Below, piece by piece: positions 9,633 through 62,549 of a stretch of 64,000 bases of DNA (position 1 is its first letter; every line of letters starts with the position of its first letter). A program made the translations under genes and the position numbers. The stretch is from Pseudomonas sp. MWU15-20650 (GTDB lineage Bacteria > Pseudomonadota > Gammaproteobacteria > Pseudomonadales > Pseudomonadaceae), in assembly GCF_023242475.1 (NCBI RefSeq), contig NZ_JALJFG010000011.1, positions 62,001-126,000 on the forward strand. Direction: 5' to 3'. The notes under the pieces were generated by a model, which saw only the letters and a list, made by a program, of their open reading frames with translations, was not told the DNA's origin and did no database searches.

Positions 9633-11882
9633 TTAGCTGAAGGTGTAGCGGCTCAATGGCAGGCTGCGGATGCGCTGGCCGGTCAGTTGCGCCACCGCAT
9701 TGGCCACTGCTGGCGCGACGGCGGGCAGTGGGGGCTCGCCGATGCCGCCCATTTTTTCGCCACTCTCGACGATCCGCACGTGCACCCGCGCCATACGCGA
9801 AGGCGGCAAGACCGGGTAAAGGTCGTAATTGCGCGCCCGTGGCTTGCCGTCCACGTACACCGCTTCTTCCAGCAATGCTTGCGACAGCCCCAAGGCCACG
9901 GCCCCGTTGACCTGCGCCTCGATAATCGCCGGGTTGACGATGCTGCCCGGGTCAATGGCCTCCCAAATGTCATGCACCTTGACCTGGCCGTTTTCGATCG
10001 AGACTTCGGCGATCACCGCAGCGTGGGAGCCGAATGGCGAGGCCATGGCGACACCACGGGCACGGCGGGTGCCGTCTTCGGCGGTGAAGGGGCCACGTTT
10101 CCAGCCACCGGACAGCTCGCCTACCGCTTGCAGCAGGGTGGTCAGCCGTGGGTTGTCGCGTAGCAGGTGCAGGCGCAGATCAAAGGGGTCATGGCCGCCC
10201 TTGTCCGCCAGTTCGTCGAGGAACGCTTCGTAGAAGAAGTCATTGAGCGAATTGCCCACTGAACGCCAATAGCCGAGCATCACCGGGCCTTTGACGTAGA
10301 TCTGCGCGATACGCTTGTTGGGGATTGCGTAGGCTTTGCCCGACAGCCCTTCGACGGCCGTAGGGTCGACTTTGTCGCCCTGTTTGCCCGCGAGGGCTTC
10401 GGTAGGGCCTTCGGTGGCGCTGACCGCCTCGATGGCCACCGGCAAGCCCTGGGCGTCCAGCGCGGCGCGGAACTTGACCACGGCGACCGGGCGCAGCACA
10501 TCGCGCAGGAATTCTTCTTCGCGGCTCCAGATCAGCTTGATCGGCCGCCCCACAGCCTTGGCCAGTGCGATGGCCTGCGGATAGGGGTTGGCCGAGTCAT
10601 AAAGGAAGTGCCGGCCAAAAAAGCCGCCCAGCAGCGGTGAGTGCAGGGTGATTTTCGCGGGGTCGAGGCCGGTACGCTTGGCGATGTCGGCGCGGAACAT
10701 GTCGGGCGCCTGGTTGGGCAACCACACCTCCAGCGTACCGTCGGGGTTGAAGCGTGCCAGGGCCGAGGGTGGCTCCAGCTGGGCGTGGTTGAGGTATTGG
10801 TTGTGATAGGTGGCTTCGACGTTGGTCTTGGCGCCGGCCAGTGCGGCGGCTACATCGCCTGCGGTTTCGTCGTCGCGGGCCGGGCCCTGCTGAGCGGCGA
10901 GAAAGTCGCGGTGCTTGTCACTGGAGAAGTCGGCGGGCATGACCCGCAGCGTCGAGTCGGCCGCCGCTTCCTGCCATTCGACCTGGATCGCTTCGACCGC
11001 GCGCTTGGCGTGCCACCAGCGTTCGGCAACCACGGCCACTGCGCCGGGCAGTTGATGAACGGAATGCACGCCCTTCATGGCCTCGACTTGCGCCTGGTTG
11101 CGCAGGCTGCCCACGGTCATGCCCAGGCGTGGTGCATGCTGGACTGCAGCGTGGAGCATGCCGTCTACCTTCAGGTCGATGCTGTACTGTGCCTTGCCGG
11201 TGGATTTGTCATAGGCGTCCAGGCGTTTCACCGGCTTGCCGATCCAGCGGAACTGGCTGGGGGCGCGCAGGGTGATGGTGGTAGGGTCAGGCACCGGCAT
11301 GTCCAGGGCGCGGCCGGCCAGTTCACCGTAGCCCAGTGAGCGGCCGGAGGCGGCGTGCACCACGCGGCCAGGTTGCGTGGACAGTTCGGCCAGCGGTACA
11401 CCCAATTGTTCTGCACCGGCCTTCAGCATCATGGCGCGGGCGAGGGCGCCGAGGCGCCGCATGGTCGGGTAGCTCATGCGTACCGACATGCTGCCGCCGG
11501 TGATGCGCAGGCCGTTTTCCATCACCACGTAGGCTTCGCCGGGCGGCGCACTTTCAACCATGAAGGTCGCGGGGTCGGCATCCAGCTCTTCGCCGACGAT
11601 CTGCGCCATGGCGGTGTGGGTGCCTTGCCCGCCTTCCATGAAGGGGCTGAGCAGGCGCACGGTGCCGTCCGGGCGAATCTCCAGGAATGCCGGCACCTGG
11701 GTTCCGCGTTCTGCGGTGGCGGTTGAGGCGGCATATACCCTGGCCGAGCCCAGCGGCAGGCCAAAACCGATCACCAGCGCACCCACGGCCGTACCGACCA
11801 GGAAGCGACGGCGTGACACGTTGATGGGCTCGCTCAATGGCATATCCGCCATGGCTGCAAAGGCGTCGTTGCGCGTATTCAT
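9633..11882 (-). CDS. Molybdopterin-binding large subunit, xanthine oxidase family (isoquinoline 1-oxidoreductase beta-like)
   Basis: This 749-residue catalytic subunit hydroxylates or oxidises aldehydes or N-heterocycles. The start is the ATG at 11882, whose TGA overlap with the [2Fe-2S] gene (ATGA) indicates coupling; the frame continues upstream only inside that gene. The N-terminus has a twin-arginine signal (SRRRFLVG at about residues 23-30, followed by a hydrophobic stretch), so the folded complex is exported to the periplasm. The protein is about 750 residues without a fused FAD domain, as in IorB. IorB in the literature acts on isoquinoline, but many homologues oxidise aldehydes, so I do not assign a substrate. 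Confidence 0.9.
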   Translation of the reverse strand: MNTRNDAFAAMADMPLSEPINVSRRRFLVGTAVGALVIGFGLPLGSARVYAASTATAERGTQVPAFLEIRPDGTVRLLSPFMEGGQGTHTAMAQIVGEELDADPATFMVESAPPGEAYVVMENGLRITGGSMSVRMSYPTMRRLGALARAMMLKAGAEQLGVPLAELSTQPGRVVHAASGRSLGYGELAGRALDMPVPDPTTITLRAPSQFRWIGKPVKRLDAYDKSTGKAQYSIDLKVDGMLHAAVQHAPRLGMTVGSLRNQAQVEAMKGVHSVHQLPGAVAVVAERWWHAKRAVEAIQVEWQEAAADSTLRVMPADFSSDKHRDFLAAQQGPARDDETAGDVAAALAGAKTNVEATYHNQYLNHAQLEPPSALARFNPDGTLEVWLPNQAPDMFRADIAKRTGLDPAKITLHSPLLGGFFGRHFLYDSANPYPQAIALAKAVGRPIKLIWSREEEFLRDVLRPVAVVKFRAALDAQGLPVAIEAVSATEGPTEALAGKQGDKVDPTAVEGLSGKAYAIPNKRIAQIYVKGPVMLGYWRSVGNSLNDFFYEAFLDELADKGGHDPFDLRLHLLRDNPRLTTLLQAVGELSGGWKRGPFTAEDGTRRARGVAMASPFGSHAAVIAEVSIENGQVKVHDIWEAIDPGSIVNPAIIEAQVNGAVALGLSQALLEEAVYVDGKPRARNYDLYPVLPPSRMARVHVRIVESGEKMGGIGEPPLPAVAPAVANAVAQLTGQRIRSLPLSRYTFS

Positions 11883-12553: not shown

Positions 12554-12886
12554 TCAGCCGGCTTTTTCGTTGCTGCGCTGCGGGTAAGTGGCCTGCCAGT
12601 GCAGGATCTGCTGCTGGATGTTCCAGTGAATGATGTGTTCGTAGAGCTTTTCGACAAAGGCCACCTCGAACCCGGCGTCGACGGCCCATTCGCGACGGTC
12701 TTGCAACATCGCCGCCACCCGCTCCGGAGCGGGGATGGCTTGCTCATTGGCTTTGAATTGCACGGCGGCTTTTACATAACCCAGGCGTTGTTGCAGTGCG
12801 TCGAGGATCTGGCGGTCGAAAAAGTCGATGCCCGCGCGGATGTCATTGAGGCTCTCGCAGGCCTGTGGTGCTTTAAGTGGCGACAT
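12554..12886 (-). CDS. pmsB: Isochorismate-pyruvate lyase for salicylate synthesis
   Basis: This 110-residue chorismate-mutase-fold enzyme splits isochorismate to salicylate and pyruvate. The start chosen is the ATG at 12886 (MSPLKAPQ), since the longer frame upstream has no similarity to the family. Residues matching the PchB active site are R17, R34 and K45 (VQFKANE), each three positions later than in PchB. It is the last gene of the minus-strand pmsC-E-A-B set, 32 bases after pmsA. That order is the one described for the pseudomonine cluster of P. fluorescens WCS374, where this gene is pmsB. Confidence 0.93.
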   Translation of the reverse strand: MSPLKAPQACESLNDIRAGIDFFDRQILDALQQRLGYVKAAVQFKANEQAIPAPERVAAMLQDRREWAVDAGFEVAFVEKLYEHIIHWNIQQQILHWQATYPQRSNEKAG

Positions 12887-12918
12887 GGTGCGTGTCTCTA
12901 TTGAAGATGAACAGGGGG

Positions 12919-14145
12919 TCAGATCACGTCGAATCGTGGGCATGCAGCCCTGGCGGCAAGGGCCGGGCGCTGTTCGTGAGCGCCTGGACGGGCATGGGCT
13001 TTGCCCAAACTCCAGGCATCGGTTTGATGCTCGGCGATGACTTCGTCGATCAAGGCGTCGATCATGCTGCTGTCGTGATGGTGAGGGGTGGTGATCAAGT
13101 GTGCGGTATTGCCGGACGTCGCCAGGCAATACTTTTTTGCGATCCGCTGCGAGGGGCAGGGGAAAACCACGGTGATGGAATTCTCGTTGCGCCAGGCATC
13201 AATACCGGCGGCCTGGAAGCGATCCACCGCGTACTGGGCCTGTTCCAGGCATTGGTGGATACGCCGGCGCCAGTCGGCAAACGAGTGGCTGCGCAGTGCC
13301 GCCCACATCATCAGCGGGGTGTGGCCATTGCGCGAGCCGCTGATGGTTTTGTCATGGGCCAGGATGTAGTCCACTTCCACCGAGATACGGGCAACGTCTT
13401 TACGCTTGGCCACCACGATGCCGCAGGGTATCGGTGAGCCGATCATCTTGTGCCCGGAGACGCAGATCGAATCGATACCGTCGGCGAACGAGAAGGGTTG
13501 CGGGTGGTCGACGAAGGGCAGGATCATCCCGCTCAACGCTGCGTCTGCGTGCAGGTAATAGTCGCGACGGGCAATGCCTGCCTGTTGCAGGCGTTGCTGG
13601 AGGGTGGCGATGTTATCGACGGCGCCGCGCATCGTCGTACCGATGTTGGCGAAGATGATGGGGTGACGCTCCTGGTCGGCGGCGATCTTGGCCATCAGGT
13701 CGTCATAGTCGATTTCGCCATTGGCCTGTGATTCGACGGCACGGCATTTGATCCGTAGCAACTTGACGATCTTCGCCACGGAGTAATGGGTGTCCTTGGA
13801 GTAATACAGGGTGCCGTCCGGGAACAGTTCGCGGGCCAGATAGCAGCCAAACATATTGCCTTCCGTGCCGCCGTTGGTGACGTAGCCCCAGCTGTCCTCG
13901 AGGGCGATCTCGAACAGCTCCGAGAAGTACGTCATGACGTCCTTCTCGAAGTCGAACGAGTTCAGCACATAGTTGCTGTACTCGTTCCAGTCCCCGCAGT
14001 TGTTGATCGAAAACTGCAGGAAACGGTGCAACTGGGAATAGTCAAAGTCGGCCGATTCGGGGTAGCCGATGTTGAAATACTGGTTTGTCACGCAGTGCTG
14101 CCAGAAGCGTTCAAGCTTGTTTTGGTCGGCCGTGGATAACGTCAT
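12919..14145 (-). CDS. pmsA: Pyridoxal-phosphate histidine decarboxylase
   Basis: This 408-residue group II decarboxylase turns histidine into histamine, a building block of pseudomonine and acinetobactin. The PLP lysine is K233 (SGHKMIGSP), the ring-stacking histidine is H120 (KDTHYSVAK), and the PLP-binding aspartate is D201 (HADAALSG). The overall sequence matches bacterial PLP-type histidine decarboxylases such as BasG. It lies between the salicylate ligase gene and pmsB. A general function in histamine production outside the siderophore is possible, but the context argues for the pathway. Confidence 0.94.
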
Positions 14146-14184: not shown

Positions 14185-16020
14185 TCAGGCCGCTTTTTGT
14201 CGTGTGTCTACCAGCGCCCACCAGCTGGCGAGCGTGGGCGAATCGGCCAGCTCTTCAAAGCTGACGGCGATGCCGCGCTCCTTGAGTTCCGCGGCGAGTT
14301 TCATCACTTGAAGGGAGTCGAGGCCGTAGAAAATCAGGTTTTCTTCAGGGTCCAGCTCGTCGCCGTCTTCAATCAGTTGCAGGACGCGGGTGTGCAGCCA
14401 GGAGCGGGTGGTTTCTGCGGCGAGGAGTTGGCGCAGCTGCTTTTTATCGATCTTGCCCACGGCCGTGAGCGGCATGCTGTCGATGAGGCGGATACGGTCC
14501 GGCAATTTGTACTCGGCGATACCGAGCTCCATCAGATGGCGCCGCAAGACGGGGGGCTTGAGGTTGGGGTTACGCGACACGACGAAGGCGCAGCTCTTTT
14601 CTCCCAGCCTTTCGTCGGGCATGGCCACGAGGCCGGCGTGGGTCACGTCAGGGTGCAGGATGATCAGGTGCTCGATTTCTTCCGAGGCGACTTTTTCACC
14701 GCCGCGATTGATCTGGTCCTTGACCCTGCCGACCACGCGCAGGTCGCCGCTGGGTGTGCGTTGAACCAGATCGCCGGAGTAGTAGTAACCCTCATTGTCG
14801 AAGGCTTGGGCATTCTGTTCGGGGCTGCGGTAGTAGCCGCAGAAGGTGTAGGGACCGCGGGTGGCCAGCATGCCCGGTTCGCCATCCGGCACGGGGATAC
14901 CTTGCTCATCGACGATTTTGATTTCGTCACCCGGGCTGATCGGGCGGCCTTGGGTGGTGAATATCTGCTCGTCGGTGTCATCCAGCCGGGTGTAGTTGAT
15001 CAAACCCTCGGCCATGCCGAATACCTGCTGCAATTGGCAGCCGAGCACGCTCGGGACCTGGCGGGCCAGCGAGTCGGCAAAGCAGGCGCCGCCCACCTGG
15101 AGGAATTCCAGCGATTGCAACGGCTCGGTGTGCTCGGGCGCGGCCTGCAGCCACAACGCGACGGCGCTGGGCACCAGGGCGACGGTGTTCACTTCATGGC
15201 GCTGGATCAATGAAAAACAGGTGAGCGGTTCCGGGCTCGGGGCCATGATGATCGTGCCGCCTGCATACAGGACGCCGAGGGCACCCGGTGAGCTGAGCAG
15301 GAAGTTATGCGCCGCCGGCAGCGCGCACAGGAAGCGGGTTTGTGCCGTCAGGCCACAGATCTCGGCACTGGCGCGGGCGTTGTAGTGGTAGTCGTTGTGG
15401 GTGCGCGGGATGAGTTTGGGGGTGCCGGTGCTGCCGCCTGACAGCTGGAAAAGCGCCACCTCATCGGCTGCGCTGGGGGAGAAGTCTACGTGGCTGTCGC
15501 TTGGGGTCTGGATCCAGGCCGTGAGGTTGTGCTCGGGACGCTGTTCGCCCAGCAGGAGGGTGACCTGTGGGCTTGAGCCGACTTCCTTGAGGTCGGCGAG
15601 GTAGCCGTCGTCGCGAAACACTTCATGCTCGCGGGAGGCGACCAGCAACCTTGGCGTGATTTGTTCGGCGTAGCGCTTGAGTTCCAGTTTGCGGTGGCTG
15701 TAGAGCGCATTGAGGGGGGCAATCCCCGCTTTGAACAGCGCGAACAGGACAATGTAGAACTCCGCGATATTCGGCAATTGCACCAAGGCGGTGTCGCCTT
15801 GGCCAAGCCCGCTCGCCGCCAGGCGCGAGGCCAGGTTGGAGGACAGTTGATCGAGCTCGCCGTAGCTGAGCCGCCGATCCCCGCAAATAATCGCGGTGGC
15901 CAAAGGCTGCGACTGGCTGCGTGCCTGGAGCAGGTGGGTGAGGGGTTGGTCGATCCAATAGCCTTTTTCCCGATAGTGCTGTGCTCTGTCGAGGGGCCAG
16001 TGCGTGAATTCTATAGTCAT
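14185..16020 (-). CDS. pmsE: Salicyl-AMP ligase fused to an aryl carrier domain
   Basis: This 611-residue protein activates salicylate as the adenylate (residues about 1-530; A3 core [11 protein letters not shown]) and transfers it to its own C-terminal aryl carrier domain (about 540-605). The phosphopantetheine serine lies in [13 protein letters not shown]. It resembles PchD and YbtE in the ligase part, with the carrier fused as in BasF-like or DhbB-like systems. The ATG at 16020 is taken as start; a GTG at 16029 is in frame. It lies 25 bases after the pmsC stop and 39 bases before pmsA. Confidence 0.93.
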
Positions 16021-16045
16021 GAAGGTCACTGCTCAAAAGTGGAAA

Positions 16046-17191
16046 TTAGTGGGCCAATCCGCATGCACGCAGCATGGTGCCAAGCTTGGTCTGGACTTCT
16101 GCCCATTCGGCGTCGGGGCTGGAGGCTTCGACGACGCCGGCGCCGGCGAACAGGCGGACCTGGTTGCGCTTGATGGTGCCGCAACGGATGGTCACCACCC
16201 ATTCGCCGTTACCCTGGGCATCGCACCAGCCCACCATGCCGGTGAACAGGCCACGTTCGAAGGGCTCGACGAAGCGGATCAGGCGCCGGGCACGCTCGGT
16301 GGGGAAACCACACACGGCAGGGGTCGGGTGCAGGCGGCAGGCTAACTGCAAGGCCGAGACAGTGGGGTCGGCCAAGCGGCCTTCGATGCGGGTGGAGAGG
16401 TGCCAGAGCGCAGGCGTGCTGATCAGGCTGGGACGTTGGGGCACGTTAAGTTGCGTGCACAGTTCCCCGAGTTGGCTGGCAATGTCCTCGGTCACCAGGC
16501 GGTGCTCGTAGTGGTCCTTTTCCGAGTTGGATAACCAGTCTGCGTTGCGCTGGTCCGCTTGCGGGTCGGCCATGCGTTTGGCCGAGCCTGCCAACGGGTT
16601 GGAGATGAAGTTCAGGCCATCTTTATGGATCAGCAACTCAGGGCTGACACCGATCAACGTCGCACCGTCCGGCATGGGCACGCGGAAGTGATAACCGCCT
16701 GGGTTCTGCGCCCGCAGGTTATTTTGCATGGCGCCTACATCGACATCCTGCGCAAACAACAACTCGCGCTGCACCGAAAGCACGGCTTTGCGCACGTCGC
16801 TGTGGCGGAAGTTGACGATGGCGTGTTCGACCGCGCGCTTGAAGCCTTGCTCGTCCGGTATGTTCTTTTGTTCAAGCAGCTCGGGAAGGCTGGCGACCGT
16901 GGTTTTCACCGCGCCGCGTCGGGCCTGCCATTCGGCGTGTTCGGGGATGTAGAGGCAGGACGCTTCTGCGGGGTCGAAGGGGATGGCGCCCACGACAATC
17001 GGGTTGGCTTGGCCTGCTCTGCGTGCCTGATCGAAGGCGTGTGTCAGGGTTTTTTGGAACAGACTTGCCGCGTTTTCGCCGTCGATGGCCGGTGTTTCGA
17101 TTCTTTGCAGCATGCCGCTGACAGCGAGTTCGCGGTCACCGGAAGTGAATGAAAAACTCTCTTTGGCATCAAGCTGTTGCACCTCATCCAT
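16046..17191 (-). CDS. pmsC: Isochorismate synthase
   Basis: The enzyme converts chorismate to isochorismate, the first step to salicylate. The 381-residue product carries the chorismate-binding domain with family signatures, including RHRLVTEDI-like spacing (EHRLVTEDIASQL), LHPTPAVCGFPTERA and RLFAGAGVV. I chose the ATG at 17191, preceded by AGGA eight bases upstream. An ATG at 17221, which has GGAGG ten bases upstream, would add ten residues. It is the first gene of the minus-strand operon, and a strong Fur-box match lies at 17263-17281, just upstream. Repression by iron is therefore expected. Confidence 0.93.
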   Translation of the reverse strand: MDEVQQLDAKESFSFTSGDRELAVSGMLQRIETPAIDGENAASLFQKTLTHAFDQARRAGQANPIVVGAIPFDPAEASCLYIPEHAEWQARRGAVKTTVASLPELLEQKNIPDEQGFKRAVEHAIVNFRHSDVRKAVLSVQRELLFAQDVDVGAMQNNLRAQNPGGYHFRVPMPDGATLIGVSPELLIHKDGLNFISNPLAGSAKRMADPQADQRNADWLSNSEKDHYEHRLVTEDIASQLGELCTQLNVPQRPSLISTPALWHLSTRIEGRLADPTVSALQLACRLHPTPAVCGFPTERARRLIRFVEPFERGLFTGMVGWCDAQGNGEWVVTIRCGTIKRNQVRLFAGAGVVEASSPDAEWAEVQTKLGTMLRACGLAH

Positions 17192-17262
17192 GTCATTCGT
17201 CCTAAGGGTGCCCGTTCTCATTTGCAGAAAGCCTCCGTGGCTTGTGATCAAAAAAATACGAC

Positions 17263-17334: not shown

Positions 17335-20300
17335 ATGAGAGAGTTAACTTCAATGCAAGCCGCCTGTTGGATCGGGCGCACTGCTCATGCGTCTTTAGGG
17401 AGAGTTTCGGCTCATCTTTATGCCGAGTTCGATGGCCATGCCATTGCGCTGGGTCGGCTGCGCGAGGCACTTGAACGGGTATGCCAAGTGCATCCCATGC
17501 TACGGGTCAGGGTGAGCGCAGAAGGGCTGCAATCCATCGCGCCGATGGACCAGGCACCCCGGTTGGAGGTTGAAGACCTGCGCGCGATGACCGCGCAGGA
17601 GGCGACGCTTCACCTGCTGGCCAAACGTGACACGTGGACACACCAGCAGCTGGACCTCGGCCATGAGCCGGGCGCGCGGTTTGGCGTGAGCTTGTTGGCA
17701 GGCGATGGTTTTCGCTTGCATGTCGATACGGACATGATCGCTGTCGACCCCTCGAGCGTGCGCACGCTGATGGAAGACCTCGCACGTTTTTATGAACGGC
17801 CCGATGACGCGGTGCCGCACACCCCATCTTTCTTCGAATGGCATGATAAGGCACGTGCCGACACCTCCCTCAAGGCGGCTCGTGATCGTGACCGTGCCTG
17901 GTGGCGGGAGCGTCTGGCTGAGGTTGCGCCGGCACCGACCTTGCCCTTTCTTGAACACTCGGCAGGCCCGGCCCAAAGCCATCGCTTGACGACCTGGCTC
18001 AGTCCGGCCGAGCGCCAGGCGTTGCAGCATCTGGCGCGCGAACGTCGGATGACGCTGTCGACCTTGATGATGGGGCTCTTTGCAGCGGTGCTCGGGGCCA
18101 AGACCGGGGACCGGGCTTTTCGCCTGAATGTACCGACGTTCTGGCGTCAGCCATTGGTGGATGAGGTCGACAGAGTGGTTGGCGATTTTGCCAATGTGTT
18201 GATTCTTGATGTGGATACCGAGTCGGCCCGCACGCCGGCTGCGCTGTGCGAGCAGCTGGCAAAAAAGATGGTCCGCCTGCTTGAACATTGCGCTTACCCT
18301 GGGGTGAACGTGATGCGCGATCTTTCCCGTCATCAGGGTTCACCGCAACTGGCACCGCTGGTGTTTACCGCTGCACTGGACATGCCGGGTGGCGACCTGT
18401 TTTCGGACCGTGTGCGGCGTGTGTTCGGCCCGATGACCTGGGTCATTTCCCAAGGCCCTCAGGTGGCGCTCGATGCACAGATAGCCTGCGCCGATGGCGG
18501 TATCCTGATCAATTGGGACATCCGCCTGGATGCCCTGCCGTTGGCGTGGGTTTCTGAGTTCTTCGACCGCTTCGTGGCGATCACGCGCGAGGTGGCAGCC
18601 AATGCCGCTGCGCTTGATCAACCAATCAGCGCCAGCACCTCAAGCCGCACGCTGGCTCAGCAACCCTTGTCTGCCTTGCAGCAGGCTTACCTGCTGGGCC
18701 GTGGCACGCAGGTGCCCTTGGGCGGTGTGGCGATGCAGGAGTTCCGGGAATATCACGGGCGCATCGCCCCAGCCTTGTTGCGAAGCCGCCTGGCCGCGAT
18801 GGTCCAGCGCCATGCCAGCCTGCGCACACGGATCGATGCGCACAATCTTGTGTCTTGCGTCAGCGAAGAGGCCCGAGTCAACCTGCACGAGGTCGATCTT
18901 ACGACGCTGTCACTGGCGGCGGCGCTGACCCATATCGACGAACGCCGCGAAGCTTATGCCCACGGGATCTTCGAGCTCGACCGTTCGCCCTGGGACGTGA
19001 CGGTATTCCACCTGCCCGACGGTCTGTTGACGGTCTTCGTGCGTCTGGATGCATTGATTCTCGACGGACGCTCTATTGCTGCGTTGCTGGTCGAGTTGTT
19101 CGACGGTGTAGTCGACGACGAGTCCGTTGGCGAGCTGGCGTCGGTGCCGACAGACCTGGCCGAGCAGCGCAAGGTCGATGCTGTGTATTGGAAAACCAAG
19201 CTCGCAGCGGTGAGCGGCGTGCCACGCCTGCCCTGGCGCGTGCCGCTGGACCAGGTGCGTGCCTCGCGCTATGAACGCCAGAGCCGGCAAGTGCCCATGG
19301 TGCAGTTCAAGGCATTCTGCAAACTGGGCGCCCGGCAGCGCTTGTTCAAGAATTCGGCGTTGATGGCGCTGGTGCTCGAAGTGCTTTCACACTGGGTCGA
19401 GGAGGGCGGGCTGTGCGTGGCCGTGCCGGTTGCCCCGCAAACAGGCGGCGCCTTTGCCAACCGTTCGAGCTTTATCGCGATCAACCGATGCGATGCGCCG
19501 AGCACCTTTGCCGAGCGCGCGGCGAAACTGCAAGTGGATGTGCTAGAGGGGCTGCAGCACTTGGCCTTCTCGGGTGTGGACCTCGCCCGGCTGCTGTTCG
19601 AGTCCCACGGTCCCGGGCCGGTGCTGCCGGTGGTCATCACCAATGGGTTCTCCTGGCCGGTATCGGCGGCAGACAGCCCCATGCGCCCGCAGGGCGGGCT
19701 GACCCAGACGCCCCAGGTGGCCATGGATATTCGTTTCTCGGCCAACGCCGAGGGCGCGCTGGTGCTGGATATCGACTATGCACGCGAGGTGCTGGACCCC
19801 GCGCTGATCCGCGATATTCTGGATGCCCTTGAAAAGGCCATCCACCAGGTTGCAACCACCGGCGTGTTCGCCGTCGATGCCGCCGCGATGATCGACACCC
19901 ATCATTATCGCCTCAATAGCCCGGCCACTGAGGCATGCCAGGAAGGCTTCCTGGCGCACATCGCCCGGCACATTTTTAACCCCGCCAACCAGCGCATTGC
20001 GCTGATCAGCGGCGAACGGCAAATCAGTTATGCCGAACTGGGTGAGGGTGTGTCCCGTGTCATCGCGGCATTGAGGGCGCGCGGCATTGCTCAGGGCCAC
20101 GTGGTCGCCATCTGCCTGCCACGTAGCCCTGAGCACACCCTGGTGACGCTGGCGTGTGCGTTGACGGGCGTGATCTGGGTGCCCATCGACGCCTCGGCGC
20201 CGGGCGAGCGTCGCGCGTATCTGCTGGATAACTGCCGCCCTGATCTGGTGGTGGTCAGCCACGGAGAAGGGGGCGCGCACCCGCAGGCGACGCCCGATGA

Positions 20301-21696
20301 GCTGTTGGCTGGGCCGGCAGCCTGCCCGCCAACGCTGGATGATCGCTCCTTGAGCGAAGCGCCGGCGTATTACCTCTACACCTCGGGCACCACCGGCAAG
20401 CCAAAATGTGTGGTCCTGTGCAACCGCGCCACGGCCAATGTCATCGGCAGCACCCTGGCGCACTGGGGTGTGCAAGAGACCGATGTATTCATGTCGGTGA
20501 CCCCGTTGCACCACGATATGTCGGTGTTCGACGTATTCGGTTGCCTCACCGCAGGCGCCACACTGGTGTTGCCAGGTGCTGGCGAAGAAAAGGACGCAGT
20601 GCGCTGGAACCAGCTGATTGCCAGGCACCACGTGACGTTGTGGTGTTCCGTGCCTGCCATTCTTGAAATGCTCCTCTCTTGCCGTGGCACCCATGGCCTG
20701 GACAGCCTGCGTCTGATTGCCCAAGGCGGCGACTACATCAAGCCGGGGGTGATCGCCGAGTTGCGCGCGCTGCTGCCATCCGCTCGCCTGGTTTCCCTGG
20801 GAGGGCCGACCGAGACCACCATCTGGAGTATCTGGCACGACATCGGTCCACAGGATCAGGCGCACATTCCGTACGGACGACCTTTGCCAGGTAATCGCTA
20901 CTTTGTGCTTGACCCCCAAGGGTGTCACTGCCCAGCGGGCGTCGTCGGCCGAATTCACACAGCCGGCGTCAACCTGGCACTGGGGTACCTGGAAAACGGC
21001 GAGCTGGCACAGAGCGAATTCATCACGGTCACGGATGAGCATGGCCAGCCTGTTCGTGCGTTTCGTACCGGTGATTGTGGACGCTATCGCCGCGACGGCA
21101 CGTTGCTCTTCGACAGCCGCGTCAATGGCTACGTGAAGGTGCGGGGCGTGCGAGTTTCGCTGCCGGACATCGAGATCGAGCTGATCAAGCATCCTGGCGT
21201 CAGGCACGTGTTGGTCGTGGACTATGGCGAGCAGCGCGAGGGTGAGGTCAGCATCGGTGCGTTGTATGTCGCGGCCGCGGACGCCGCGCCGCTGACGGCC
21301 ACCGTATTGCGCCACTTTGCCCGCGAGCATCTGCCGCAGTCCCATGTCCCCACACGGTTTTTGAACGTCGATGAATTGCCGCTTTCGCAAAACGGCAAGC
21401 CCGATCGTCAGCGCGCCCGCAGCCTGCTGCTGGAACCCCTCGAGGACGAACTCCAGGCTGCGTCGGCGCCGCCTAACAAAGTCCTGGCGATCTACCTCAG
21501 CGTGCTGGGCCGCGTGCCAGACGACGCCGCGGATGCTGCCGTGGATTTCATCAGCCTGGGGTTGCGCCCTCAGCATTTGAAAGCCATTGCCGCGCGGTTT
21601 CAGGAGGAGCTTTCGGTGGTGCTTTCACCCGGGCAACTACTACGTTGCCGTAACGCACAAGACGTTGAACACCTGCTCGCCACCTTGGCGGCATGA
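17335..21696 (+). CDS. Nonribosomal peptide synthetase Cy-Cy-A-T with a degenerate carrier domain (PmsD/BasD type)
   Basis: This 1,453-residue synthetase should join salicylate to threonine and cyclise it. Two heterocyclisation domains come first. Cy1 (about 1-430) has D133-D138-S141 (DMIAVDPSS) and Cy2 (about 445-860) has D572-D577-S580 (DALILDGRS), both fitting DxxxxDxxS. The adenylation domain (about 880-1,375) has A3 [13 protein letters not shown]5 [11 protein letters not shown]7 RTGD and the A10 lysine in SQNGKPDR. The C-terminal carrier domain reads [12 protein letters not shown] where active carriers read DFFxLGGHSL, so the serine is replaced by proline (P1412) and it cannot be phosphopantetheinylated. 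Threonine specificity is inferred from the pathway, not from the pocket. No thioesterase is present. Confidence 0.92.
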
Positions 21697-21772: not shown

Positions 21773-23092
21773 ATGAAGGATTTACCCACTGTAGATATCG
21801 CCGGTGTTGGCATCGGGCCTTTTAACCTGGGGCTCGCCGCGTTGTTGTCCAAACACCCCGATATCACCAGCATTTTCCTGGATCGCAAGGCGGAATTTCG
21901 TTGGCACGAAGGGCTGCTATTGCCCGGGACCACGTTGCAAGTGCCGTTCCTGGCCGACCTGGTCACGATGGCCGATCCCACCCACGAATTGAGCTATTTG
22001 AACTACTTGCACCAGCACGACCGCCTGTACCCGTTCTACTACTACGAAAACTTCCAGGTGCCACGCCGCGAGTACGACCATTACTGTCGGTGGGCATCGC
22101 AACAGTTGCCTACGTGTCACTTTGGCGAAGACATTTGTGATGTAACCTATGAGGCGGGGGCGGGGCGGTTCCTGATTGAAAGCCAGTCCGTGTCAGGTTT
22201 CAAACGGCACTACACCAGCCGTAACCTGGCGGTGGGGGTGGGGACGACACCGCTGTTGCCCCAGTGGGCGCAGGTGAAAAGTACCGCGCCGATCATGCAT
22301 TCAGCCGAGTTTGGCAAGCGCCAGGAGCAATTGGCGAAATGCCGGCGTGTCACCGTGATTGGCTCCGGCCAAAGTGCGGCCGAGTGCGTACTGGCGTTGT
22401 TCAGCGAACTGAAGCCCGAACGCATCGCGGCGGGCGCTTCGATTCGCTGGATCACCCGTTCACCAGGCTTCCATCCCATGGAGTATTCGAAACTGGGGCA
22501 GGAATGCTTTACGCCGTCCTACATGGAGTACTTCCACAGCCTTCCACGGGAGCGTCGCCGCGAAGTCGTGGCCAAGCAAGGGTTGCTGTACAAAGGCATC
22601 AGTTTTTCGACCATCGGCGACATTTACGACCTGATCTATGAGCGTTCGATCGGCGGCAGCGACCCCGGCCTGACCCTGCTGTCGAACTGTGAAGTGGAGA
22701 CGGTCGACGACATCGACGGTACGTTGCACATCGCCTATCGACACCGCGAGTTGGATCGGTCCAGCAGCCTGGAAGCCGATGCGATTGTGGCGGCCACCGG
22801 CTACGGGCATGCCTGGCCACAGTGGTTTGAGCGGCTCAAGGGCACGGTGCTAGAGACTGATGAGTACGGCGACTGTATTGTCGAAGACGACTTTACCGCG
22901 CGCCGTTGTGACGAGGGGGCAGGGCGCATTTTTGTGCAGAACGCGGAGATCTTCCAGCATGGTGTGGGCTCGCCGGACCTGGGCATTGCGGCGATTCGCA
23001 ACGCGACCATTGCCAACCAACTGCTCGGCCGCCAGCACTACCGCCTGCCCAAGCGGTCATCGTTCCAGCGCTACGGCATGCACGAGGATTGA
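21773..23092 (+). CDS. FAD/NADPH N-monooxygenase, probable histamine N-hydroxylase
   Basis: This 439-residue flavoprotein belongs to the lysine/ornithine N-monooxygenase family (IucD, PvdA, BasC). It has an N-terminal FAD motif GVGIGPFNLGLA (about 12-23), the family segment DLVTMADPTHELSYLNYL, an NADPH site GSGQSAAECVL (about 198-208) and a C-terminal VAATGYGHAWPQW. In this locus the expected substrate is histamine, giving N-hydroxyhistamine, as in acinetobactin and pseudomonine synthesis. It starts at ATG 21773 behind GGGAGA and follows the NRPS gene on the same strand. It is convergent with the T-C NRPS. Confidence 0.93.
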   Translation: MKDLPTVDIAGVGIGPFNLGLAALLSKHPDITSIFLDRKAEFRWHEGLLLPGTTLQVPFLADLVTMADPTHELSYLNYLHQHDRLYPFYYYENFQVPRREYDHYCRWASQQLPTCHFGEDICDVTYEAGAGRFLIESQSVSGFKRHYTSRNLAVGVGTTPLLPQWAQVKSTAPIMHSAEFGKRQEQLAKCRRVTVIGSGQSAAECVLALFSELKPERIAAGASIRWITRSPGFHPMEYSKLGQECFTPSYMEYFHSLPRERRREVVAKQGLLYKGISFSTIGDIYDLIYERSIGGSDPGLTLLSNCEVETVDDIDGTLHIAYRHRELDRSSSLEADAIVAATGYGHAWPQWFERLKGTVLETDEYGDCIVEDDFTARRCDEGAGRIFVQNAEIFQHGVGSPDLGIAAIRNATIANQLLGRQHYRLPKRSSFQRYGMHED

Positions 23093-23150: not shown

Positions 23151-25292
23151 TCAGATGCGGATGTGGTCCAGGGCGATGGCATCGGCCCCCGGTGTCGAAA
23201 ACAGCGCGAACATCTGCTCGATCATTGCGCTCATGCGCGCCATCTGTTCTGCACTGTAGCGGTCCGAGCGGTACGTGATCACCAGGCGTAGCGCGCGGTT
23301 GCCATCGATCATGTTTTCCATGATTTCGAATTGAATACCGAACATCGACTGGTTCTTGTCCGGGTCAATCTGGCGGTAACGGATGGCTCCGGTATCGGGG
23401 GTGTGCAAGGCACCATTCAAGGCGTTATTGGCATGAATCTGGATGTACACGTCGAACAGCAGGCCGTCGGCCGGTGTCATGCCCAGTGCCTGTTGAATCT
23501 GCTCCATCGGCACGTCGGCGTAGGCCATGGAGTCGTTGATCAGGCGGCTGACGCTTTCAATCATTGCGCCAACTGCCTGCTGCGGGTCGAATTGCACACG
23601 ATGCGCCACCATCGTGGTGAAGTAACCAACCGTGTCGTAATACGCAGGGTCGGTTCGACCAGAGGCCGACGTACCAATCACCAGGTCTTTGAGGCCGGCG
23701 AGTTTATGCAGGGACAGCACGATCGCCGAATACACCACGCCAAACAGCGAGGCGTTGTTTTGTCGGGCGAAGGCATACAGGTGATCGATGGTGTCTTGGG
23801 CAGGTTTGATTTCGAACCACTGTGCCTTCGTCGAGGCCTGCTCGGCCGGTTGGCCGGAGGCGGGCAGCGTCAGGCCGCGGGTTGCGTCACGCAGCATGTT
23901 CGTCCAGTAATCAAGGTGCTGCTGGTTGATGCCGGTGGCCTGTTGCCGCAGGGCGAACTCATGGAATGAAGGGGCCGGGCTTTTCCAGAGCGGCACTCTA
24001 TCGGCCGCGCGGGCCAGGTACGCCTGGGCCAGCTCTTCCATCATGACGTTCAGTGACCATTCATCAATTGCCATGTGATGCACGAGCAGCGACAGGGTCT
24101 GACGCTGGCGTTGCGCGTCTTCAATAAAGCGAACCCTGAGGGGCAGTTCACGGGTCAGGTCGAACTGATACGCAGCTTCGCTTTGCAGGGTTGCGCCCCG
24201 GCTTTCATGGCTTGGCCAGAACCACTTGTAACGGGACAACTGCGAGGCCGGCACGATCTGCTGGTACGCCTCATTACCGTCGAAGTGGAAGGTGCTGCGC
24301 AGGCTGGCGTGGCGCTCCAGCAGGTCATGGAACGCTTGCTCGAACAGCGCTTCATCGACCTTGTCGAGAAACTCCATGGCAAATGGCAGGTTGAAAATCG
24401 TACCGAACTCAAAGGCCGCATAAGCGCGCCCGAGTGAGGCTTGGGCCAGTGCGAAGGGGGCTGTCTGTACGTCGTGCGGCAAGGCGTCGCCAGTTGCTGG
24501 TGCATCGGCTTTAGCGATAAGCCGGGCGCGCGCGGCCAGGGCTGCTGCCGACGGTGCGCTGAAAAAATCATTGAACTGGACTTCGATGCCATGGCTGCTC
24601 AACAGCTTGCCGATGATGCGGGTCGCGAGCAGGGAGTGGCCTCCAAAGTCGAAGAAGTCATCCGTCGCGGCCATGCCGGGTTCCGCGAGGGCCTGGCGGA
24701 ACTCATTCAGGATAGTGGCGGTGATGGCGGGGTCATTCGCCTGGGCAATCGGTGCGCCAGCCGTTTCGCCATTGTCGGCCGGGCGATGCAGCCAGGGTCG
24801 TGGGACATCACGGATGGGATGGCCGGTGTAGGTGGTCAGGGCCTGGCGGTAAAGGTCGTGCGCCTGGCAGGTGTGGTCGAGGATTTTATGCAGCATCAAC
24901 GCCAGGATCGGCGCCTGCGTGGTTTGCACAATCAGCGCCTTGAACGGCGGCTGGCTCTGTGCGTCCCAGGGGGCCGCTTGCTCAGCTTGCAGATGGTCGC
25001 TGGCGTCGCCCGGCAAATGAATGCGTTCAACGCAGGATTGCCAGTCATTCGCCTGGAGTTTGTCGACCTCGCCGTCATCGTTGAAGGCGTAGCGAGTGTT
25101 CAGGTCGGGCAAGGATTCGATAACAGCCTGTAAGGCTGATTCCAGTCGTGAAAGGTCGATGTCCGTGTCGAGTTGCCAGGCGCTCAAATGCTTGAGCGTG
25201 CGCTCGGGATATTGCTGCTGCAAGAGCCAGATATTTTCTTCGTAATCGTTGGCAGATCGCTGCGATAACGTATCTGGAGTGAGTTCCATCAT
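23151..25292 (-). CDS. Nonribosomal peptide synthetase with vestigial C, carrier (T) and condensation (C) domains (BasB type)
   Basis: This 713-residue protein should hold the threonyl intermediate and release it onto N-hydroxyhistamine. The carrier domain (about 185-260) has an intact site, S220 in DDFFDFGGHSLLA. The following condensation domain (about 275-710) has HHMAIDEW at 405-412, fitting HHxxxD with Glu in place of the usual Gly. The first ~165 residues resemble the N-terminal lobe of a condensation domain with a decayed active site (LHKILDHTCQ). I start at ATG 25292; a TTG at 25313 is upstream, and a second ATG follows immediately. It is transcribed away from the ECF sigma factor gene. 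Confidence 0.9.
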   Translation of the reverse strand: MMELTPDTLSQRSANDYEENIWLLQQQYPERTLKHLSAWQLDTDIDLSRLESALQAVIESLPDLNTRYAFNDDGEVDKLQANDWQSCVERIHLPGDASDHLQAEQAAPWDAQSQPPFKALIVQTTQAPILALMLHKILDHTCQAHDLYRQALTTYTGHPIRDVPRPWLHRPADNGETAGAPIAQANDPAITATILNEFRQALAEPGMAATDDFFDFGGHSLLATRIIGKLLSSHGIEVQFNDFFSAPSAAALAARARLIAKADAPATGDALPHDVQTAPFALAQASLGRAYAAFEFGTIFNLPFAMEFLDKVDEALFEQAFHDLLERHASLRSTFHFDGNEAYQQIVPASQLSRYKWFWPSHESRGATLQSEAAYQFDLTRELPLRVRFIEDAQRQRQTLSLLVHHMAIDEWSLNVMMEELAQAYLARAADRVPLWKSPAPSFHEFALRQQATGINQQHLDYWTNMLRDATRGLTLPASGQPAEQASTKAQWFEIKPAQDTIDHLYAFARQNNASLFGVVYSAIVLSLHKLAGLKDLVIGTSASGRTDPAYYDTVGYFTTMVAHRVQFDPQQAVGAMIESVSRLINDSMAYADVPMEQIQQALGMTPADGLLFDVYIQIHANNALNGALHTPDTGAIRYRQIDPDKNQSMFGIQFEIMENMIDGNRALRLVITYRSDRYSAEQMARMSAMIEQMFALFSTPGADAIALDHIRI

Positions 25293-25469: not shown

Positions 25470-25521
25470 ATTCGCATTAGTCAAAAGCTGGTCGCGAGTG
25501 GAATTTCTCAGGAGAGGTGTT

Positions 25522-26040
25522 GTGAACAACGGAGCGTTCGCGTCCAAACAGCAATTTGAGCAGCTGTACGTCGACCATCACCGCTGGTTGTGCAGCCTGT
25601 TGCGTCGCAAGTTGGGCAACTCGGTCGATGCCGCGGACCTGGCCCATGACGTTTACCTCAACCTCATCAAAAAAGGCCAGGTGCCTTCCCATGAAGACTC
25701 GCGCTGCCACCTGACCCAAATCGCCAAAGGCATGGTGATCGACTTGTATCGCCGCCGTCGCCTGGAAGCCAGCCACCTGGAAGGGTTGATGCAACAGGCC
25801 GAGCCCCAGGTGCCGTCCGAAGAGATCCGCGCACTGGCCACCGAAGCCCTGGTGCAAATCGATGGCGCCCTGCACGCCAATCCTCCCAAGGCCCGTGAAG
25901 CCCTGTTGCTGTGCAAGCTGCACGGCATGGGCTACCGGGATATCGCCGCCGAATTGAAGGTGTCGGTGTCTTCCGTCGAAAAGTACATCGCGGCGGGGCT
26001 TAGGGCCTGTCGCCCCTTCGTGTCGGCGGCCGGTCTGTGA
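25522..26040 (+). CDS. ECF sigma factor (FecI/PvdS-like) of the siderophore locus
   Basis: This 172-residue sigma-70 factor has region 2 at about 8-75 (LYVDHHRWLCSLLRRKLGN, then DLAHDVYLNL) and region 4 at about 110-165 (LLLCKLHGMGYRDIAAELKVSVSSVEKYI). The start is the GTG at 25522, seven bases after AGGAG; an upstream GTG at 25498 is in frame but lies before that site. Iron-starvation sigma factors of this class direct transcription of siderophore receptor or synthesis genes. No FecR-like anti-sigma gene follows, unlike most FecI systems, so control may be by Fur alone, as for PvdS. Confidence 0.93.
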   Translation: MNNGAFASKQQFEQLYVDHHRWLCSLLRRKLGNSVDAADLAHDVYLNLIKKGQVPSHEDSRCHLTQIAKGMVIDLYRRRRLEASHLEGLMQQAEPQVPSEEIRALATEALVQIDGALHANPPKAREALLLCKLHGMGYRDIAAELKVSVSSVEKYIAAGLRACRPFVSAAGL

Positions 26041-60968: not shown

Positions 60969-62549
60969 ATGACCCAACGCCTCGGCCACAATTACATCGG
61001 CGGCCAGCGCAGCGCCAACGGCAGCGTCATCCTCAACAGTGTCGATGCCACTACCGGTGAAGCCTTGCCCCATGCGTTCTACCAAGCCACACCCGAGGAA
61101 GTCGACGCTGCCGCCAAGGCGGCCGCAGCGGCTTACTCGGCGTACCGTGGGTTGAGCGCTTCGCGTCGCGCGCAGTTCCTCGAGGCGGTGGCCGATGAGC
61201 TGGACGCGCTGGGCGATGACTTCGTCGCGCTGGTTTGCCGTGAAACCGCACTGCCCGCCGCACGTATCCAAGGTGAACGCGGGCGTACCAGCGGCCAAAT
61301 GCGTCTGTTTGCCAGCGTGCTGCGTCGCGGCGACTTCTACGGCGCCCGCATCGACAGGGCCTTGCCCGATCGCCAGCCGCTGCCGCGCCCGGACCTGCGC
61401 CAATACCGCATCGGCCTGGGGCCGGTGGCGGTGTTTGGCGCCAGCAACTTCCCCCTGGCGTTTTCCACGGCGGGCGGCGACACCGCGGCGGCGTTGGCGG
61501 CGGGTTGCCCGGTGGTGTTCAAGGCCCACAGCGGGCATATGGCCACGGCTGAGTGCGTCGCCGATGCAATCATACGGGCGGCCGAAGCCACCGAGATGCC
61601 GGCGGGCGTGTTCAATATGATTTTCGGCGCCGGCGTCGGTGAGGCGCTGGTCAAGCACCCGGCGATCCAGGCCGTCGGCTTTACCGGCTCGCTCAAGGGC
61701 GGCCGCGCCCTGTGCGATATGGCGGCGGCCCGCCCGCAGCCGATCCCGGTGTTTGCTGAAATGTCGAGCATCAACCCGGTGATCGTGCTGCCCCAGGCCT
61801 TGCAGGCGCGGGCGGACAGCATTGCCCGCGACCTGACGGCCTCGGTGGTGCAGGGCTGTGGCCAGTTCTGCACCAACCCGGGGCTGGTGATCGGCATTGC
61901 GTCGCCGTCCTTCAGTGCATTCACCCAACAGGTGGCCCGGCTGATCGCGGATCAACCGGCGCAAACCATGCTCAACGCCGGCACCTTGAGCAGCTATGGC
62001 AAAGGCCTGGAAAAACTCCTCGCCCATCCCGGCATCCAGCATTTGGCGGGCCAAGCCCAGGCGGGCCACCAAGCGCAGCCGCAGCTGTTCAAGGCCGACG
62101 CGCATTTACTGCTCGACGCGCACGCCCTGTTGCAGGAAGAGGTGTTCGGCCCGACCACGGTGTTTGTGGAAGTTGCCGACCGTGCGCAACTCAACGCCGC
62201 CTTGCACGGCCTGCACGGGCAACTGACGGCCACGCTGATTGCAGAACCTGGCGACCTGCAACAGTTCGCCGAACTTACCCCGCTGTTGGAACAGAAAGTC
62301 GGGCGCATCCTGCTCAACGGTTACCCGACCGGCGTGGAAGTGTGCGACTCGATGGTGCACGGCGGCCCATACCCGGCGACGTCCGATGCCCGTGGCACTT
62401 CGGTCGGCACCCTGGCCATCGAGCGTTTCCTGCGTCCGGTGTGTTTCCAGAATTACCCTGATAGCCTGCTGCCCGACGCGTTGAAAAATGCCAACCCGTT
62501 GCGTATCCAGCGGCTGGTGGATGGCACGCCATCCCGCGACCCGCTGTAA
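60969..62549 (+). CDS. 2-Oxoglutarate semialdehyde (2,5-dioxovalerate) dehydrogenase
   Basis: This 526-residue aldehyde dehydrogenase has catalytic C301 (VVQGCGQFCTNPG) and general base E264 (VFAEMSS), in the subgroup using NADP for alpha-ketoglutarate semialdehyde. It would complete the oxidative pentose route to 2-oxoglutarate. ATG 60969 follows AAGGAGAA; the frame runs back into the FAH-fold gene but without a ribosome site. The very similar spacing to its neighbours supports an operon. Confidence 0.9.
   Translation: MTQRLGHNYIGGQRSANGSVILNSVDATTGEALPHAFYQATPEEVDAAAKAAAAAYSAYRGLSASRRAQFLEAVADELDALGDDFVALVCRETALPAARIQGERGRTSGQMRLFASVLRRGDFYGARIDRALPDRQPLPRPDLRQYRIGLGPVAVFGASNFPLAFSTAGGDTAAALAAGCPVVFKAHSGHMATAECVADAIIRAAEATEMPAGVFNMIFGAGVGEALVKHPAIQAVGFTGSLKGGRALCDMAAARPQPIPVFAEMSSINPVIVLPQALQARADSIARDLTASVVQGCGQFCTNPGLVIGIASPSFSAFTQQVARLIADQPAQTMLNAGTLSSYGKGLEKLLAHPGIQHLAGQAQAGHQAQPQLFKADAHLLLDAHALLQEEVFGPTTVFVEVADRAQLNAALHGLHGQLTATLIAEPGDLQQFAELTPLLEQKVGRILLNGYPTGVEVCDSMVHGGPYPATSDARGTSVGTLAIERFLRPVCFQNYPDSLLPDALKNANPLRIQRLVDGTPSRDPL

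Follow-up and report, generated by a model that had tools for sequence, protein, structure and literature searches.

Trans loading and a dead carrier domain are both already known from this siderophore family. In the available text of the respective papers, threonine of pseudomonine is described as carried on PmsG and loaded in trans (PMC11308372), BasA of the acinetobactin system as loading BasB in trans (PMC12005286), and the threonyl group of serratiochelin as sitting on SchF3 (PMC7962358). For anguibactin, the accessible parts of PMC6836290 and PMC5577590 report that AngR has an active adenylation (A) domain, a carrier with serine changed to alanine, and a dead Cy domain, and that AngM is loaded in trans. 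The carrier state of PmsD finds no mention in the available text of the pseudomonine papers PMC11308372 and PMC3496975, and the corresponding parts of PMC3584223 and PMC5635690 give no description of the C-terminal domain of PmsD or BasD either. A conserved serine-less carrier domain of PmsD, BasD, and BasA, denoted T* in the following, was undescribed in the open-licence literature that we found; the primary pseudomonine papers lie outside this scope and may hold an earlier description.

The window (the whole stretch of 64,000 nucleotides analysed, from Pseudomonas sp. MWU15-20650; positions 62001–126000 of contig C3 in a 6.08 Mb genome) contains a pseudomonine-type siderophore cluster, in which the product of 17335–21696 is probably the synthetase subunit PmsD. 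The gene, with its domains in Cy-Cy-A order, lies beside homologues of pmsA, pmsC, pmsE, pmsF, and pmsG, and in the tree it fell into one group with genes from strains of P. fluorescens and P. entomophila, the compared sequences not being labelled as PmsD. The following genes and domains were annotated:

12554–13129, minus strand: ORF with probable pmsB (isochorismate-pyruvate lyase)
12919–14145, minus strand: pmsA-like histidine decarboxylase (NCBIfam PRK02769, 629 bits, cut-off 305)
14185–16029, minus strand: pmsE-like aryl-adenylating enzyme with C-terminal aryl carrier
16046–17251, minus strand: pmsC-like isochorismate synthase (NCBIfam TIGR00543, 324.5 bits, cut-off 224.75)
17335–21696, plus strand: pmsD-like gene, Cy1-Cy2-A-T* (ORF of 1453 aa, Pfam)
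19990–21399, plus strand: adenylation domain of PmsD, aa 886–1355, core motifs intact (by eye)
21448–21693, plus strand: T*, serine-less carrier-fold domain, aa 1372–1453 (PP-binding 22.7 bits, AlphaFold2, PDB fold matches)
21544–21582, plus strand: motif of T*, 13 residues from D1404 to 1416 (translation)
21773–23092, plus strand: pmsF-like histamine N-monooxygenase (NCBIfam TIGR04439, 802 bits, cut-off 700)
23151–25292, minus strand: pmsG-like gene, C1 remnant-T-C2 (ORF to 25313, probable ATG at 25292)
23208–24410, minus strand: C2 condensation domain of PmsG, HHMAIDE
24528–24716, minus strand: live carrier domain of PmsG (PP-binding 4.5e-10; GGHS at 24633–24644)
24870–25232, minus strand: C1 remnant of PmsG, condensation N-lobe with LHKILDH instead of HHxxxDG

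The ORF at 12554–13129 is presumably pmsB, which we assume from its resemblance to PchB, and a PchB-like lyase at this place points to salicylate as the aryl acid. The aryl-adenylating enzyme exceeded the NCBIfam cut-off for 2,3-dihydroxybenzoyl-adenylate synthase, so that the NCBIfam score leaves the aryl acid unsettled. An ORF that by eye resembles a sigma factor (25498–26040) follows pmsG and is probably the regulator of the cluster; beyond it lie two genes for ABC exporters and permeases for iron transport.

Compared with PmsD/PmsG of P. fluorescens and P. entomophila, for which the available text of PMC3496975 gives the same gene content, no difference was found; the P. entomophila COR5 gene was 70% identical to PmsD of the window and read GLRPPHLK at the carrier site. 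An earlier sequence-only reading of the window had placed the loading of threonine in trans on the separate T-C protein, which fits the pseudomonine model already published (PMC11308372, as far as its available text goes). The PmsD/PmsG pair also revealed the AngR-type pattern of an A domain followed by a serine-less carrier, with the live carrier on a separate T-C protein as in AngM, though AngR, which is known here from parts of the cited papers alone, differs in its serine-to-alanine exchange and its dead Cy domain. In the acinetobactin system, BasD ended in GLRPHHLK and BasA in GIRPKQLM (gene names assigned in this analysis to a record stretch without annotation). Both are serine-less like PmsD of the window, but the Cy-Cy and A domains are on separate chains, each with a T* of its own. 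The Cy2-A proteins of Serratia likewise ended in a serine-less T* (GLKLPHIK or GLKLPHIR), and the serratiochelin partner is a C1-T-C2 protein whose C1 is without HHxxxDG, as in PmsG; the difference is that Cy1 is a separate protein there, with a tail weakly like a further serine-less carrier (SchF names assigned in this analysis from organism and gene order).

Serine-less carrier domain of PmsD

The frame of PmsD revealed no internal stop over 1453 aa and gave Pfam matches for Condensation, AMP-binding, AMP-binding_C, and PP-binding. Its product was 64–82% identical to nine other Pseudomonas orthologues and 52% identical to BasD of A. baumannii. For PP-binding, the whole protein scored 17.2 bits (cut-off 20.8) and two other scans gave 22.0 and 22.7 bits, and T* was the weakest among the 47 above-cut-off carrier matches of the genome. 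Where GGHS is expected from the live-carrier motif DFFxLGGHSL, T* reads GLRP, and P1412 (21568–21570) occupies the position of the phosphopantetheine serine, which is expected at the start of helix 2. The sequence-only reading had reported this serine-to-proline exchange in an otherwise intact frame, behind an adenylation domain with its motifs present; all three statements were borne out (the motifs by eye). The position it gave, 21586–21640, lies in the same domain but begins just downstream of the motif. Judging from the residue at this site, T* cannot be modified by phosphopantetheine at the canonical position.

AlphaFold2 modelling of T* with 56 sequences (that of the window and 55 of the 81 available) resulted in four helices with a pLDDT of 77.7, helix 2 beginning at P1412. 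All 50 PDB matches listed by Foldseek were carriers or carrier-containing proteins by description, with TM values mostly of about 0.6–0.75; among these matches, the best E value was 5.8e-3 and none was at 0.001 or below. A search of PDB chains with the sequence of T* gave no match up to E = 1. By sequence and predicted four-helix fold, T* belongs to the peptidyl carrier family PF00550.

The pmsD gene was present in 10 of 199 Pseudomonas genomes, including this one. At the carrier site, eight of the orthologues read GLRPQHLK, one GLRPTHLK, and one GLRPPHLK. Chance, a frameshift, or a sequencing error is an unlikely source of the exchange and was rejected, since all ten have the proline.

Chains with T* and their partner proteins

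For a wider comparison, relatives were collected by a scan with two Cy-domain motifs, from which the best 80 of 112 relatives were taken, corresponding to 79 distinct loci; T* was present in all of them. Other searches used queries that included T* only as a small part and were made at the genome, plasmid, order, and genus levels. With their own thresholds, the order-level search matched in 7 of 394 genomes and the genus-level search in 29 of 227, and plasmid records added more. In a class-wide search for Cy-Cy relatives at E up to 1e-60, this genome was the only one of 274 with a match. The alignment of T* with its homologues, as the sequence-only reading had suggested, comprised 119 rows, of which 115 were distinct, and was built from loci other than the nine Pseudomonas orthologues (L010–L018). 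The T* count omits nine genus-level matches of 32–35% identity, in which the adenylation half alone matched (two were inspected and are other synthetases), and L148, which is the other half of the L141 gene.

None of the 115 distinct domains, from alpha-, beta-, and gammaproteobacteria, carried serine at the site. Proline was found in 107, leucine in seven (five Serratia, one E. coli plasmid, and L109), and alanine in one (L138). Several further columns were conserved, namely G1409 (113/115), L1410 (111/115), P1412 (107/115), H1414 (107/115), K1416 (99/115), and C1438 (108/115), so that T* has a signature of its own, GLxPxHLK ... CR, in place of GGHS. In the A-domain tree, the serine-less state occurred in every in-family group except a Paracoccus pair; this tree was midpoint-rooted, and the placement of Paracoccus and BasA in it is unsure, and long branches meet.

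Some of the collected loci deserve separate mention. L138/L151 come from a 3.9 Mb genome of a genus presumed to be Vibrio on account of LuxQ-periplasm hits (the same search gave none in 274 class-level genomes); the PmsD-like protein there is diverged (38%) and retains little of the T* motif (GVQANDL), and its gene lies near an ORF matching the C1-T-C2 partner. By their titles, L034, L035, and L039 are from a Paucimonas MAG, from Pantoea sp. Cy-639, and from Xenophilus sp. AP218F; their PmsD genes group with Pseudomonas or Chromobacterium, which may reflect recent transfer or wrong labels on the genomes. L021 (NZ_CP146684.1) is a conjugative plasmid of E. coli that encodes a synthetase of the PmsD/SchF kind with 43% identity to PmsD. 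A C1-T-C2 partner, a TonB receptor, and an ABC transporter for iron chelates are encoded on it as well; the annotated genes of its stretch include neither a histidine decarboxylase nor a histamine hydroxylase, and a second record, NZ_AP022088.1, also matched. On the Agrobacterium salinitolerans plasmid L019, the gene is split over two overlapping frames (around 11185–11431), where its relatives have one ORF.

With respect to chain architecture, T* ended Cy1-Cy2-A chains in Pseudomonas, Chromobacterium, Aeromonas, most Agrobacterium, and others, Cy2-A chains in Serratia, most Photorhabdus, Bosea, and Roseibium, Cy-Cy chains in BasD of Acinetobacter and in Marinomonas, and A chains in BasA of A. 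baumannii and two Marinomonas. It was also found in all five Cy-Cy proteins of the presumed Vibrio genus, which were taken as AngN type. Where BasD and BasA stand in place of a single PmsD, each of the two has a T*. In the set L019–L104, T* was present in every one of the 85 ORFs in which Cy2 was recognised (identity of 36% or more across 300 aa), and of the 81 ORFs with an A domain only Paracoccus L024 lacked it. Weak resemblance to a further serine-less carrier was also seen in the tails of 18 Cy1-only proteins (18 usable of 20, with L024 and L019 set aside); one of two scanned tails gave a Pfam match of 20.3 bits, below the cut-off, and hhalign a probability of 46.5%, which is suggestive only.

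The exception, Paracoccus L106, has one open frame of 1917 aa with homologous Cy, A, T, and C2 domains in the order Cy-Cy-A-T(GGHS)-C. It differs from PmsD/PmsG in that the live carrier lies in cis and both T* and C1 are missing. The near-identical L024 (Paracoccus sp. MA) is likewise without T* and C1. Among the lineages examined, T* is thus absent from this one only, whose tree position is unsure, and the sole lineage without a protein break is the one without both domains. As a side observation, L024 contains an in-frame stop inside Cy2 (10047–10049), where the P. denitrificans frame of L106 is open. No fused VibF-type Cy-Cy-A-C-T-C protein was found among the matches listed in 227 genomes of the presumed Vibrio genus; long ORFs in that search matched over the A domain only, and two that were fetched are other synthetases.

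On the partner side, PmsG of the window carries DFFDFGGHSL on the minus strand within 23151–25292, in agreement with the earlier statement that the separate T-C protein keeps GGHS. This also held for all 73 partner ORFs in which both T and C2 were covered (72 when a twice-fetched A. baumannii record is counted once); the count leaves aside partners outside the fetched stretch, and partner ORF L074 was cut before its carrier. C2 kept HHxxxD[E/N] in 70 of the 73, the other three being outside this pattern. Upstream of the carrier, HHxxxDG was found in none of the 73, two of which are the Paracoccus fusions, whose upstream region is not a C domain.

The C1 remnant of PmsG matched Pfam Condensation at 1.3e-4 with 21.2 bits, under the cut-off of 30.6. 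Of five C1 segments scanned, three gave this match (6.9e-7, 6.6e-7, and the 1.3e-4 of PmsG), all under the curated cut-off. BLAST tied the region before the carrier to the N-terminal region of PmsG in 64 of the 71 partner ORFs that are not fused, among them that of the window; no such match was obtained in the seven others, which are rhodobacterial (L022, L077, L079, L080, L086, L093, and L094) and in which the presence of C1 is uncertain. A longer C1, with about 420 residues, was found in Agrobacterium, Photorhabdus, and Serratia, whereas PmsG of the window and BasB have about 190. In L060 and L085 (Pseudomonas sp.), the region before the carrier reaches up to about 380–400 residues instead of about 190; the shortened C1 is therefore not genus-wide in Pseudomonas. 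By these sequence features, C1 is a catalytically dead condensation segment in most partners, so that, with the serine-less T*, two inert domains meet at the break between the proteins.

Possible tasks of T*

T* is not a recent defect, because many related bacteria share the altered domain. Since serine loss is both widespread and fixed, with a new motif standing where GGHS would be, T* is likely neither a working carrier nor junk, and counting it as one or the other is likely wrong.

The explanation that we favour, and to which we give about an even chance, is that T* is a carrier that has been retired and retained in PmsD as a non-catalytic domain, probably for docking. The adenylation domain of PmsD would activate threonine and load it in trans onto the live carrier of PmsG, and both Cy domains of PmsD would then couple and cyclise it with the aryl group. 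T* would have retained the carrier fold with no phosphopantetheine at the usual place and be kept by selection for a non-catalytic task: at the ends of Cy-Cy, A, Cy2-A, and Cy-Cy-A fragments, it may hold the upstream chain near its partner. Docking is probably the likeliest task, and C1 at the start of PmsG is possibly the site to which T* docks. A comparison of distance matrices over 60 loci was not discriminating in this respect and did not single out C1 as the partner of T*, with partial correlations to T* given A of 0.446 for C1, 0.497 for C2, 0.366 for the partner T, and 0.469 for Cy2.

A more specific version, which we put forward tentatively, is that the protein breaks of PmsD, BasD, and SchF are bridged by a handshake of two dead parts, T* and C1 (present as the N-lobe only in PmsG and BasB), both of which are gone in the fused Paracoccus protein. 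If this is true, evolution would have turned carrier and condensation domains into docking domains. Should T* dock, this would help to explain how single-module siderophore synthetases work though cut at several points, and T* would be a natural part for joining synthetase fragments.

Rather doubtful, in our view, is a purely intramolecular task, in which T* would bind no partner but cap or order the A subdomain (or the platform formed by Cy and A). An A domain does precede T* in most chains. Furthermore, when the AlphaFold2 model of Cy2-A-T* was compared with known structures, 5t3d (holo-EntF in the thioester-forming state) topped the 50 matches listed with a query-normalised TM-score of 0.75, a predicted likeness that would also fit a role on the A domain. 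However, T* of BasD directly follows Cy2 with no A domain in the chain, BasA has a T* of its own, and the Paracoccus A domain, which presumably works, stands in a chain without T*.

That T* is a functionless relic, passively persisting after an in-line module was split, is improbable. The canonical serine is lost, as such a relic would have it, and in L138 most of the motif has gone as well, but the new motif is conserved across classes and T* is absent from only one of the lineages examined. Selection also speaks against it. The dN/dS values (Nei-Gojobori, pooled pairs, dS about 1) were obtained from 19 PmsD-type genes, namely that of the window and those of 18 close relatives selected among the 79 loci. 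T* gave 0.183 and its motif half (residues 1404–1449) 0.108, which is lower still than the values of the catalytic domains (A domain 0.163, Cy1 0.175, and Cy2 0.200), and the linker between A and T* gave 0.425. T* is under purifying selection and, with a value near those of the catalytic domains, is selected as they are. A pseudogene was rejected, because the frame is intact and dN/dS is constrained.

The sequence-only reading had gone further and taken the locus for one caught halfway between an in-line and a split module. Members of the family do load in trans, as far as the available parts of the cited papers describe it, but this proposal did not hold and is now very improbable. The same state was found in all ten Pseudomonas orthologues and all 115 distinct relatives, T* has its own motif and is under purifying selection, and more fully split systems keep it, Acinetobacter on both BasD and BasA.

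Loading of T* after all via another serine can practically be dismissed: though 46 of the 115 homologues have serine one residue past the site and S1407 lies nearby in PmsD, the residue past the site is glutamine in PmsD, as in 37 of the 115, position 1407 is serine in 50 of the 115, and neither position is conserved as serine.
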